Source: Capsulimonas corticalis
Lineage (GTDB): Bacteria; Armatimonadota; Armatimonadia; Armatimonadales; Capsulimonadaceae
Reading direction: 5' to 3'
Length of the DNA stretch: 64,000 nucleotides
NCBI RefSeq assembly: GCF_003574315.2
Contig: NZ_AP025739.1
Span: forward strand, 372,001 to 436,000
Each line of letters begins with the position of its first letter. Position 1 is the first letter of the stretch. Shown here piece by piece: positions 191-4,418 of the stretch. Made by a program: the position numbers and the translations under genes. Under the pieces are notes generated by a model. The model worked only from the letters and a program-made list of their open reading frames with translations, did no database searches and had not been told where the DNA came from.

Positions 191-1276
191 ATGCCATCGA
201 GACGTGATTTCCTCAAACAAGCGGCCCTGAGCGGCGCAGCGGCGATGCTGGGATCTCTCCCGCAAGCCGAAGCGTCGGGAGACGCACCGCTCGCGCTCCC
301 AGCCGGGCGGACGCTCGAATACTGGATCCAGGCGGACTCCCTGCCCTGGATTCTTGCCCCGAACGGCCGCGACTCGATGACGGGCGCTGCTTATGACGCG
401 GCTCAAAGCTCGTTTGTCACGGTGGGCTACCGGGCCTATTCCGAGAACTGGGCCGCCCTGCTGCCGCCCGATCCCGGGATCGGCGAAAACTCGGGCATCC
501 CCGGTCCCATCCTCCGAGCGCGAGTCGGAGACACGATCGTCATCCATTTCAAAAACAACGACGTTCGTCCAAAGCCGGCCGCGCACAGTATCCATCTCGA
601 AGGGCTGGTCCGCGAGATGGAGAACGACGGCTTCTGGCGCAGCAGCGAGCCGAACCTGCCGGGCACGGCGGTCTATCCCGGCGAAACATACACCTACCGT
701 TACACCGCGCCCGCAAGCGCCGCCGGCGCGTGGCTTTATTCCGATTTTTCCGCCTCCCGACGTATGAAAGGACGCGGCTTCGACATTCGGATCTACCGGG
801 ATGTCCCCGTCTATACCCGCGCCAAGCCGCAGGAGCCCTCCGAACTCGACGCTCCCGTGGGAGCGCAGTTTGGGCTCTTCGGCATGGCGATTATCGACGA
901 CGAGAACACAAAGCCTGCGGACCGCGAGAACGTGGTGATTTTCCACGATCTCTATTCCGACGATCTGCCGATGCTGGTTCAGGATTTCGACTGCATCAAC
1001 GGCCGATCGTTTCTTGGGAACACTCCGACCTTCCAGGCGCGAACCGGCGAACGGGTGCGCTGGCGCATCGGATCGGTCGGACGCGAGAACCATGTCTTCC
1101 ATATCCACGGCCATCGCTGGCGGATGAACGGAGCCTTCACGGACACGCATCTCCTGGCTCCGGGAACGACGGCGACTTTCGACTATCTCGAAGATTCTCC
1201 CGGGGAATGGCTGTACCACTGTCACTTCACGGAACATATAATGGGGGGAATGGCGGGGCTTTATGTGGTGTCGTAA
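191..1276 (+). CDS. Two-domain multicopper oxidase paralogue A (C-terminal copper ligands intact, N-terminal ones lost)
   Basis: Predicted exported cupredoxin protein of the small two-domain laccase size (361 aa). SRRDFLK at residues 3-9 followed by a hydrophobic stretch is a Tat signal, suggesting export after folding with copper. The C-terminal domain keeps every ligand: H301, H304 and H306 in HVFHIHGH, and H343, C344, H345, H349 and M354 in YHCHFTEHIMGGM. That is a full type 1 site plus this domain's half of the trinuclear cluster. The N-terminal domain is damaged: HxHG reads HLEG (H135, E137) and the expected HxH reads S184-D-F186. First gene of a tight four-gene unit with a redoxin, a cytochrome/monooxygenase-like protein and paralogue B. 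ATG 191 is chosen because the Tat motif follows directly; the AGGA at 174-177 is rather far upstream. Its substrate is unknown. As written it should not work as a conventional homo-oligomeric oxidase (inference). Confidence 0.88.
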   Translation: MPSRRDFLKQAALSGAAAMLGSLPQAEASGDAPLALPAGRTLEYWIQADSLPWILAPNGRDSMTGAAYDAAQSSFVTVGYRAYSENWAALLPPDPGIGENSGIPGPILRARVGDTIVIHFKNNDVRPKPAAHSIHLEGLVREMENDGFWRSSEPNLPGTAVYPGETYTYRYTAPASAAGAWLYSDFSASRRMKGRGFDIRIYRDVPVYTRAKPQEPSELDAPVGAQFGLFGMAIIDDENTKPADRENVVIFHDLYSDDLPMLVQDFDCINGRSFLGNTPTFQARTGERVRWRIGSVGRENHVFHIHGHRWRMNGAFTDTHLLAPGTTATFDYLEDSPGEWLYHCHFTEHIMGGMAGLYVVS

Positions 1277-1280
1277 TGTC

Positions 1281-1856
1281 ATGGCGGCGACCGTCGGGAT
1301 CCTCTGGAGCGTGATGGGGGGCGCACACGCCGCCGAGAACGCGCCGCATCTCGCGCCGGCGACGATGCGCGCGACCGGCCTGGACGGCAAGGCGCGACTT
1401 TTGCCGCTCCGCGCATCTCGGGCGACCGTATTGGTCTTTCTTCTGAGCGACTGCCCCGTCTGCAATCGCTACGCGCCGGAAATTCAGCGACTCGAAGCCG
1501 ACTATCGCCGTCAAGGCGTGGATATCGATGTCGTCTATGAGGATAGCGATCTCACGCGGACGCAGGCGCTGCGGCACGCCAAAGCGTACGGTCTGACCTG
1601 TGGACTTCTGTACGATCCCGCGCACATGCTGGCGCGCCAGGCCGGCGCGGGCTCCGTTCCCGAAGCCGTCGTGCTTTCCTCGGATGGCGCGGCCCTGTAT
1701 CACGGCCGGATCGACGACCGATTTCAGCACTTCGGGATGGCGAATCCGGCGCCGGCGCATCGCGATCTGCGATCGGCGCTCGATTCGGTATTGACCGGCG
1801 CGCCGGTCGCGGTCACGCAGACGCCGGTTGTCGGATGCGTCATCCCCAAAGATTGA
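1281..1856 (+). CDS. Exported thioredoxin-fold redoxin with CxxC
   Basis: 191 aa. A hydrophobic N-terminus ending near AHA (residues 15-17) suggests export. The thioredoxin fold is shown by the redox motif C58-P-V-C61 inside SDCPVCNRYAPEI and by the cis-proline region GSVPEA (P127). Further cysteines are C107 and C186, the latter in the VGCVIP tail. The YHGRIDDR stretch and the tail resemble redoxins found beside, or fused to, cytochrome c/Cu-monooxygenase-like proteins in Acidobacteria and Planctomycetes (recalled, not searched). Likely role: periplasmic thiol-disulfide exchange, perhaps keeping the type 1 copper cysteine of paralogue A reduced or delivering copper, as Sco/TlpA proteins do for oxidases (inference). 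ATG 1281 lies 4 nt after the preceding stop; an in-frame ATG at 1263 would overlap it. The next gene begins 16 nt downstream. Confidence 0.8.
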   Translation: MAATVGILWSVMGGAHAAENAPHLAPATMRATGLDGKARLLPLRASRATVLVFLLSDCPVCNRYAPEIQRLEADYRRQGVDIDVVYEDSDLTRTQALRHAKAYGLTCGLLYDPAHMLARQAGAGSVPEAVVLSSDGAALYHGRIDDRFQHFGMANPAPAHRDLRSALDSVLTGAPVAVTQTPVVGCVIPKD

Positions 1857-1872
1857 GGGAAGCCACGGTACG

Positions 1873-3351
1873 ATGAAGCCATCACGCGCATTTCTGATCG
1901 CCGCCTCGGTCCTGGCGCTCGCCGCCGGCCTATCGCTCCAGCGCGCCGCGCCGACGCGCGCCGATGCGCGGGAAGCGCCGACTCCGAACTACCGCCAGGA
2001 CATCCGCCCGATCGTCGCCGCGCACTGCGTCTCCTGTCACCAGGAACATTCGGGCGCGCCCTTCCCGCTGACGACATATCGGGATGTGGAAAAGAGAGCC
2101 GCGCAGATCGCCCAGGTCGCGACGGCGAAGTTCATGCCGCCCTGGAAGCCCGATTCTCATGGAGAACTGCTGGGCGAAAACCGCCTGTCCACACGGGAAA
2201 TCGATCTTTTGCAGCGATGGGCGGCTCAGAATACTCTGGAAGGACCGGCAAGCGGCGCCGCGCCGGACGTCTCCGCCGCCATCCCCCTCAACCAAGATTC
2301 CCGCGCCGGATTAGGAACGCCCGACGCCGTCCTGGAGCCGGCGGAGACGTCTCATATTCCTGCCGACGGGCCTGATTTCTACCGCTGCTGCATTCTGCCC
2401 ACACGCTTCGCCGAGGATCGGCATCTATCGGCGATTGTCCTGGAGCCGGGCAGCGCCGCCGTCGACCATGCGCTCATTTACCAGGACACGAGCCATCAGA
2501 TACGCTTGATGAACGCCGTGGCTCCCGGCGGCGCGTTCCGGGTGCAGGGAAGCACGACGGGGCTCCAGCCGGCCATGGTGATCGGCGGCTGGGGCGTCGG
2601 CGCGCATCCGGCCCGCTTTCCCGCCGGCGCCGGACTGCTGCTTTCGCGCGGCGCGGACATCATCGTCGAAACGCATTACCGCCCAAGCGGCAAACCCGAA
2701 ACGGATCGGCCGCGCCTGCTGCTGTACTTTTGCAAGGCGCCCGTGACGCATCTCGTCCGCGTAGCCCCGGTCATGCCGCGCGTCCTGCGTCTCCCGCCGA
2801 ACGTCACGGATATCCATGTCGGCGGACAGAGTCCCGTCACGAGCAATATCTCCGTCCTCTCGATCCTGCCGTATATGCGGCGGCGCGGCGCGGCGATCAC
2901 GATGGGAGTACTGACATCCGAGCAGAAGCAAAGTGTCCTGCTGAGCATCCCGCAATGGGACTTCGACTGGATTGGGGAGTATCGATTCCGACAGCCGGTT
3001 CGGATCTTGGCTGGATCGATGCTGACGATGGAGGCGATCTTCAACAACGCCGTTCCAGACAGCGATCGGGACGAAACCGTAACACAGAACGGTCTGGTCT
3101 GCTGGGGCGATGCGCCCACGGATGAGAACGCCGTCGCCTACATCTTCTACACCACCGACGCGGAATCCCTCGGCCGGCGCGACATCGCGGGTGTCCCGCC
3201 GGCCGGCGGACCGGCGCAGGCGGGGATGCGAAAAGTCATCCTCAAGATGTTTGACACGAATCACGACGGGACGATCTCACCGGAGGAATATCGTCATATG
3301 AGCGGTTATTTCCATGGCGGCATGCCGTCAATGGCGGGAATGGAGATGTAA
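1873..3351 (+). CDS. c-type cytochrome fused to degenerate PHM-like copper monooxygenase, C-terminal EF-hand
   Basis: 492 aa with a signal peptide (1-30). Residues 35-125 form a cytochrome c domain: haem motif C52-V-S-C55-H56 and candidate distal ligand M88 in FMPPW. Residues about 165-430 resemble copper type II ascorbate-dependent monooxygenases (PHM family), but the usual HH reads D198-H199, H268 is kept in ETHYRPSG, the HxH of the second domain reads Y334-M-R336, and the DEM methionine reads N419. The CuM site is therefore gone and CuH keeps two of three histidines. A canonical EF-hand loop (D461, N463, D465, T467, S469, E472) and a Met/His-rich tail close the protein. ATG 1873 is preceded by GAGGGAAG; an in-frame ATG at 1828 lies inside the previous gene. 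Probably a periplasmic electron carrier or scaffold rather than a hydroxylase (inference). Confidence 0.8.
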   Translation: MKPSRAFLIAASVLALAAGLSLQRAAPTRADAREAPTPNYRQDIRPIVAAHCVSCHQEHSGAPFPLTTYRDVEKRAAQIAQVATAKFMPPWKPDSHGELLGENRLSTREIDLLQRWAAQNTLEGPASGAAPDVSAAIPLNQDSRAGLGTPDAVLEPAETSHIPADGPDFYRCCILPTRFAEDRHLSAIVLEPGSAAVDHALIYQDTSHQIRLMNAVAPGGAFRVQGSTTGLQPAMVIGGWGVGAHPARFPAGAGLLLSRGADIIVETHYRPSGKPETDRPRLLLYFCKAPVTHLVRVAPVMPRVLRLPPNVTDIHVGGQSPVTSNISVLSILPYMRRRGAAITMGVLTSEQKQSVLLSIPQWDFDWIGEYRFRQPVRILAGSMLTMEAIFNNAVPDSDRDETVTQNGLVCWGDAPTDENAVAYIFYTTDAESLGRRDIAGVPPAGGPAQAGMRKVILKMFDTNHDGTISPEEYRHMSGYFHGGMPSMAGMEM

Positions 3352-3353
3352 CG

Positions 3354-4418
3354 ATGGACAGAAGAACAGCGCTCACCCAGACGAACTCTGGACTCCCTCC
3401 GGTCAGCCGCCGGAGCGTACTGCGCGGAGCGATGGCCGGCGGAACGGCGCTGGCGCTTGGCGCGTTCGTCCCCAGCGCGACCGCCGCGCAGGCCGCTCCG
3501 CGCGCCATCGGAACAATTCGTGAATACTGGATCCAGGCCGGCTCGTTTCCCAGAACGCTCGTCAGCGGCGGTCACGACGATCTGCTCGGCCGCATCTTCA
3601 CGCCCGAAGACAGCGGGTACTGGGCGCTCGGTTACCGCGCTTACACCCCGAATTGGGCGAAACCGCTGGCGTCCGATGCGAATCACGGCGAGAACGCCGG
3701 AATCCCCGGCCCGGTCATTCGCGCAAATGTCGGCGATACGATCGTCATCCACTTCCGCAACAACGACACGCACTATCGATTCCCGCACAGCATCCACGTC
3801 CACGGCCTGGTCTACACTCCGGAAAACGACGGCGCCTGGATCTCCTCCAAATCAAATGCTCCCGGAACGGCCGTGCTGCCCGGACACACGCACACATACA
3901 CTTACCGCGCCGATGCGACATCGGTGGGGACCTGGGTCTACCACGACCACTCCCTGCCCCAGTCCCTTGGCGGCGGCGCGCCCGTAATGGATCTGAGCAC
4001 GCAGCTCGGCATGTTCGGACTGATCGCCGTGGACGCGCCCGGCGCTCCTCCCGTGGATTGCGAGCACATCCTCTACTTCCACCAGATGTACGCCGCCGAC
4101 GTTCCCTCACTCGCTCAGGATTACGCCTGCTTCAACGGCGCCGCGTTTCTGCCGAACACCCCCGTCTTTCACTCAAAAGTCGGCGAGCGAGTCCGCTGGC
4201 GAATCGGAGCCCTCGGCCAGGAATTCTACACCTTCCACCTGCACGGCCATCGCTGGAAGACGGGGGACGGCTATAGGGATACAGCCCTCATCGGGCCAGC
4301 GTCGACGGCCACCATCGAGTACGTGGAAGACAATCCAGGCAGCTGGTTTTACCATGCGACCTCAACCAACCACCTCGTCTCCGGCATGATCGGGCAATAT
4401 TTCGTGACCAAGGCGTAA
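3354..4418 (+). CDS. Two-domain multicopper oxidase paralogue B (N-terminal copper ligands intact, type 1 site lost)
   Basis: 354 aa, Tat-type signal (SRRSVLRGA at residues 18-26), colinear with paralogue A. The N-terminal domain is complete: H148 and H150 in HVHG, H197 and H199 in YHDH. The C-terminal domain keeps H295 and H297 but has Y292 where the type 1 histidine belongs. In place of HCH it reads H334-A335-T336, so the type 1 cysteine and one type 3 histidine are absent; H340 and M345 remain. Without the cysteine it cannot bind type 1 copper. These losses are the mirror image of paralogue A, so B's first domain plus A's second domain supply all ligands. The YHDH and FHLHGHRW wording is like Streptomyces small laccase, whose trinuclear site sits between subunits (family knowledge). 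The ATG is 2 nt after the preceding stop, so translation is probably coupled. Last gene of the operon. Confidence 0.88.
   Translation: MDRRTALTQTNSGLPPVSRRSVLRGAMAGGTALALGAFVPSATAAQAAPRAIGTIREYWIQAGSFPRTLVSGGHDDLLGRIFTPEDSGYWALGYRAYTPNWAKPLASDANHGENAGIPGPVIRANVGDTIVIHFRNNDTHYRFPHSIHVHGLVYTPENDGAWISSKSNAPGTAVLPGHTHTYTYRADATSVGTWVYHDHSLPQSLGGGAPVMDLSTQLGMFGLIAVDAPGAPPVDCEHILYFHQMYAADVPSLAQDYACFNGAAFLPNTPVFHSKVGERVRWRIGALGQEFYTFHLHGHRWKTGDGYRDTALIGPASTATIEYVEDNPGSWFYHATSTNHLVSGMIGQYFVTKA

Follow-up and report, generated by a model that had tools for sequence, protein, structure and literature searches.

Complementary copper-ligand losses in two paralogous multicopper oxidases of Capsulimonas corticalis: a putative heteromeric oxidase

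Small laccases assemble as a three-subunit ring, in which domain 1 of each subunit builds a trinuclear copper site together with domain 2 of its neighbour. Two paralogous genes of this general type, here called A and B, lie within a stretch of 64,000 nucleotides of the Capsulimonas corticalis genome (the window, to which all positions below refer), and each of their products lacks copper ligands that the other has kept. Do the two proteins complete a single oxidase site between them, as a sequence-only reading of the locus had proposed, or has copper catalysis been given up in both? The genes concerned are the following:

191..1276, + strand: paralogue A, 361 aa, a two-domain multicopper oxidase with a twin-arginine signal (Pfam, predicted model)
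1281..1856, + strand: redoxin-like protein with a CPVC motif, a probable operon partner (Pfam Redoxin, 5.6e-10; 4-base gap to A)
1873..3351, + strand: P0004, the middle protein, haem (CVSCH), monooxygenase-like and EF-hand
3354..4418, + strand: paralogue B, 354 aa (Pfam, predicted model), starting 2 bases past the preceding stop

A and B had been described as adjacent, which has to be corrected, as two genes lie between them (1281-1856 and 1873-3351). The intergenic gaps from A to the redoxin gene, the haem-protein gene and B are 4, 16 and 2 bases, so that all four genes probably belong to one operon, common to A and B, and co-expression is implied. A promoter and terminator search at the locus gave no informative signal.

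Fold and copper ligands of the two paralogues

A and B are 49% identical, both frames are intact, and both contain the two Cu-oxidase cupredoxin domains PF07732 and PF07731 (in A, Cu-oxidase_2 at 2.6e-22 and Cu-oxidase_3 at 4.4e-19). The solved sequences nearest to them are ceruloplasmin and small laccases. AlphaFold2 monomer models, with a mean pLDDT of 80 (A) and 89 (B), aligned across both domains with small-laccase structures, a comparison that the sequence-only reading had suggested, with an rmsd of 1.9-2.3 Å and Z scores of 25 (A) and 26-27 (B); Z was 30 to ceruloplasmin for each, and the models superpose on residues ~335-699 of the human protein, its second two-domain unit, the N-terminal extension included. 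The Pfam matches and the models thus bear out the assignment of A and B to the small-laccase-type family, whose trait is the inter-subunit trinuclear site. Neither protein contains all eight trinuclear histidines in one subunit type, and they are accordingly filed as a variant of the two-domain multicopper oxidases, with a putative oxidase function. The positions that matter are these:

593..595, + strand: A H135, codon CAT, the sole domain 1 trinuclear ligand that A retains
599..601, + strand: A E137, codon GAA, a former trinuclear His
740..748, + strand: A S184-D185-F186, where the domain 1 H-x-H is gone
1091..1108, + strand: A H301..H304..H306, type 1 His and two trinuclear His, intact
1217..1252, + strand: A H343-C344-H345...H349...M354, type 3 His pair and type 1 Cys, His and Met, intact
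3795..3803, + strand: B H148-V149-H150, first pair of the trinuclear half-site, intact
3813..3815, + strand: B Y154, matching by spacing the catalytic Tyr108 of small laccase; A has R141
3942..3950, + strand: B H197-D198-H199, second pair of the trinuclear half-site, intact
4227..4229, + strand: B Y292, codon TAC, a former type 1 His
4353..4361, + strand: B H334-A335-T336, where the type 1 Cys and one type 3 His are gone

Every ligand residue named for A and for B in the sequence-only reading was recovered at its position, and each had been called kept or lost correctly. A retains 8/8 copper ligands in domain 2, including a complete type 1 site (H, C, H, M), and 1/4 in domain 1, which leaves it with five of the eight trinuclear histidines. 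B shows the reverse, with 4/4 in domain 1 and 5/8 in domain 2 (H295, H297, H334, H340 and M345), that is seven of the eight trinuclear histidines and an incomplete type 1 site (Y292, A335). No domain 1 Cys is present in either protein. The sole pairing that gives all twelve ligands is the one that had been proposed, domain 1 of B facing domain 2 of A.

Directly before the type 1 His, A carries N300 (1088-1090), a position occupied by Phe in most homologues and by Tyr in small laccase. In small laccase this Tyr is part of the substrate surface, and the substrate specificity of A may therefore differ.

In SLAC, the small laccase of Streptomyces coelicolor, the ligands are H102, H104, H156, H158, H231, H234, H236, H287, C288, H289, H293 and M298, and Tyr108 is a catalytic tyrosine beside the trinuclear cluster (PMC3918160). 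The presence of Y154 in B against R141 in A agrees with domain 1 of B being the working half. Alanine replacement of each of the ten ligand histidines of SLAC, and of the ligand Cys, abolished most activity (PMC3918160); as A and B have each lost three ligands, a homo-oligomer of A and a homo-oligomer of B should, by analogy, both be inactive.

A sequencing error or frameshift was considered as the source of the pattern and is unlikely: none of the replaced codons GAA, TCC, TTT, GCG and ACC can be reached from one for His or Cys by a single base change, which could explain only Y292 (TAC), the frames are intact, and the genome assembles into a single contig of 7.65 Mb.

How surprising is the fit between the two sets of losses? 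Under a null model in which three of twelve ligands are lost at random from each protein, a complete inter-paralogue pairing has p = 0.009, and a Fisher test of the complementary halves (12/12 kept) against the other halves (6/12) gives a two-sided p = 0.014, or 0.077 for the trinuclear ligands only; all of these values assume independent losses, and if losses always cluster within one half-site, complementarity could arise by chance about one time in two. Losses inside one half-site are non-independent, so that the complementarity, modestly significant at p ~0.01 under independence, is suggestive and not decisive. A further measure is retention against a changing background. Of the other conserved columns, 31 of 78 changed in domain 2 of A and 21 of 72 in domain 1 of B, yet these domains kept 8/8 and 4/4 ligands, with a joint chance of ~0.004 if ligands were as free to change as other conserved columns and, again, independent.

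The opposite relaxation of the two domains that a shared site would lead one to expect outside the ligands was not significant in counts of unique changes, either in domain 1 (13 in A, 6 in B, p 0.17) or in domain 2 (11 in A, 8 in B, p 0.65). The domain 1 branch lengths initially showed a fourfold excess of A over B, and in a larger tree they were 0.93 (A) and 0.33 (B). Since the simple change counts are non-significant despite this excess, domain-specific relaxation was dropped as support.

Ancestry and distribution of the pair

All 32 homologues compared, as well as four more distant ones, have 12/12 ligands, and the complementarity claimed for the locus is thus real and specific to the A/B pair among these proteins. 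The nearest homologues are from Streptomycetaceae, at 45-55% identity, and occur in 20 of 150 genomes sampled; none at this identity was found among 127 other genomes sampled from the class, and weaker homologues occur in other Actinomycetota.

Five actinomycetotal genomes (G313, G476, G547, G712 and G760) carry two copies, both with 12/12 ligands (L057/L068, L079/L117, L075/L092, L123/L130 and L121/L128). Such genomes are a useful control for ligand loss after duplication. As both of their copies are intact, duplication alone does not lead to ligand loss, and plain decay after duplication is ruled out as the norm.

Trees were built with the ligand columns left out. A and B emerged as sisters nested among the single-gene proteins of Streptomycetaceae, with supports of 98/94 in a tree of 33 rows and 98/98 in one of 19 rows, and the grouping was also recovered from the N-terminal part and domain 1 only (97/99). 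The domain 2 tree alone did not recover A+B, yet did not reject it (AU p 0.21). End branches are 1.12 for A and 0.71 for B, against a median of 0.24. The nesting of the two sisters within a clade of 12/12 proteins sustains the duplication scenario of the sequence-only reading and indicates that the duplicated gene was intact and that the complementary losses followed in the copies. The ancestral intact gene was probably acquired from, or common to, an actinomycete lineage; a gene transfer, and its direction, are suggested by the tree.

Intact orthologues of A and B in close relatives had been named in advance as evidence that would speak against a shared site, and a search of 291 genomes from this phylum returned no orthologous pair. 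Neither A nor B has a close homologue there, the best reaching 33-35% identity (L014 and L015, both 12/12), and there is no second A/B pair among them. A single scan of a species genome collection returned two relatives, both intact single genes, and no second pair. None was found on plasmids, where the best match had ~30% identity, in viral contigs, or in the Actinomycetota samples. These searches gave no second genome with the pair, and no independent conservation speaks for it. Within the C. corticalis genome itself, no other member of the A/B oxidase family was found.

L014 and L015, from the same phylum, are intact two-domain oxidases with ceruloplasmin-like HTCHWHGK and WLIHCH motifs, and may serve as a bacterial model for one unit of ceruloplasmin.

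The intervening genes and what the complex may do

Where six aligned relatives of the redoxin-like protein carry just one Cys (DCPIA/SN), the protein itself reads CPVC, apparently a newly gained CxxC of the thioredoxin type. In the phylum, a redoxin gene immediately followed by a haem/monooxygenase-like gene is a recurrent pair (L113, L114, L107, L110, L103 and L109), flanked by A and B in the window only.

P0004 is 37% identical to its relatives, a family found in 71 of 201 genomes of the phylum and with three members in this genome. Most copper ligands of this family are gone from it, four motifs being altered: HH to DH198, HYH to HYR270, HMH to YMR at 334-336 and EMC to ENA at 418-420, so that each is without at least one ligand residue. 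Among 11 relatives, HH, HYH, HMH and EMC are all retained but for one protein, in which HYN replaces HYH, and the Pfam Cu2_monoox models match relatives and not P0004. A paralogue in the same genome (L114) is among the relatives with copper motifs. The haem motif CVSCH and the EF-hand are retained, and P0004 is predicted to be a copper-free pseudo-monooxygenase with both of these intact. Copper sites have thus been lost in three neighbouring genes, A, B and P0004, and the loss in P0004 makes a general loss of copper chemistry in the operon a live alternative.

With regard to association, ring order, copper loading and catalysis, we infer the following. Exported A and B subunits would assemble in the cyclic, head-to-tail manner of two-domain oxidases. 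At the interface of domain 1 of B with domain 2 of A, a complete trinuclear cluster would form beside the type 1 copper of A; electrons would enter at this copper (C344), pass through H343/H345 to the shared cluster, and reduce O2 to water there. In a closed ring of three, not every interface can be complete, and either A2B or AB2 has one complete site. The simplest stoichiometry would be A2B, with one complete oxidase site and one spare type 1 copper, an arrangement found within the single chain of ceruloplasmin. By analogy with ceruloplasmin, B would stand for the first unit and A for the last and, in A2B, also for the middle one. More speculatively, the haem domain of P0004 could be the electron donor.

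We consider the case for A and B as an obligate heteromeric oxidase, in its simplest form an A2B ring that has a single complete cluster, to be evenly balanced, and the same holds for a complex with one shared copper site in which P0004 serves as haem electron donor or scaffold. The fuller proposal, of a catalytic copper cluster that can arise only between two paralogous gene products, an analogue of ceruloplasmin divided between genes, fixed by complementary half-site loss and perhaps supplied with electrons by P0004, falls slightly short of that balance.

The complementary pattern has to be weighed against readings in which A and B never reduce O2 together. They may be non-catalytic cupredoxins, the type 1 site of A acting as an electron carrier or copper binder and B as a copper-poor scaffold, which with P0004 form an electron-transfer or sensing complex. 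The complete type 1 site of A would suit such a role, as would a P0004 that kept its haem motif and EF-hand while losing its own copper ligands; a copper-free protein, factor V, is known from the wider family (PMC3600357), and the lack of domain-specific relaxation outside the ligands is also in keeping with it. However, this explanation leaves unaccounted for the four trinuclear histidines in domain 2 of A and the four in domain 1 of B, the fit between the two ligand sets, and the catalytic Tyr retained in B, and we regard it as rather unlikely, if still a serious rival. The same losses in three neighbouring copper-protein genes, together with the long branches of A and B (1.12 and 0.71 against a median of 0.24), could instead mark a decaying relic operon, whose copper chemistry is no longer needed and whose ligands were lost at random, with a coincidental complementarity. 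Yet some one change per site has left all four reading frames unbroken, export signals have survived along with many conserved residues, and the losses of each paralogue are limited to one half-site, which makes simple decay improbable.

Other partners or metals might also be involved, the type 1 copper and half-cluster of A working with an oxidase subunit encoded elsewhere, and B housing a type 2/type 3-like centre for another reaction. A homo-oligomer of B would still have 7/8 trinuclear histidines and, with its type 1 copper gone, a potential centre of type 2/3, but the genome encodes no further member of the family, and A and B share an operon and are each other's closest relatives; of the explanations considered we find this one the hardest to credit. 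Among these readings, the shared A/B oxidase site is the one that we favour.

Significance and comparison with known systems

If A and B do form one oxidase, the locus would show an intermediate stage on the way from a homotrimer to an oxidase of several units that has a single active site, with ligands lost in trans from the two gene copies; in ceruloplasmin, only the final, fused product can be seen. The locus would also be a clean test case of how complementary loss binds duplicated subunits to each other in a heteromer, since the ligands are all known and all open to swapping. A warning for annotation would follow as well: a ligand-based procedure would discard both A and B as dead.

The nearest homologues of A and B, the single-gene oxidases of Streptomycetaceae (L044-L059, L068, L075, L079 and others; 45-55% identical), differ from them in having 12/12 ligands and no redoxin or haem partners in the neighbourhoods checked. 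P0004, for its part, belongs by sequence to the copper type II monooxygenase-like haem proteins, whose other members keep the motifs that it lost. A parallel in principle to mutual dependence is the deoxyhypusine synthase of trypanosomatids and its prozyme, duplicated subunits for which it is proven that an impaired subunit and a dead paralogue make an active enzyme only together (PMC3663545). That enzyme is unrelated, however, one of its subunits is weakly active alone, and it has no metal half-sites.

Type-B small laccases such as SLAC resemble A and B in their two cupredoxin domains, the type 1 site in domain 2, the HxHG and HxH motifs in domain 1 and the same predicted fold. In contrast to A and B, each of which is without three ligands, SLAC is built from a single kind of intact polypeptide, as a homotrimer whose three sites are all complete; a trimer with three clusters is described in PMC3918160. 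A search of the open literature, subscription papers being outside its scope, returned no description of a heteromeric small laccase. The sequence-only reading had considered an oxidase of this kind to be undescribed, which holds for a heteromer in that literature but not for the principle, since the same trick is known within one chain in six-domain oxidases (PMC3600357).

It is to ceruloplasmin and the six-domain oxidases that the models of A and B have their best structural match (Z ~30). Of three possible trinuclear sites, ceruloplasmin has a single one, between domains 1 and 6; bacterial and algal six-domain oxidases have theirs at the junction of domains 2 and 3, and more than one is not known in any member (PMC3600357). 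In these proteins two units contribute to the one trinuclear site, the first with its domain 1 and the second with its domain 2, and ligands have been lost elsewhere (PMC3600357), a pattern that A and B share at the level of sequence. In ceruloplasmin, however, three two-domain units are fused in one chain, whereas A and B are separate frames of 361 and 354 aa.
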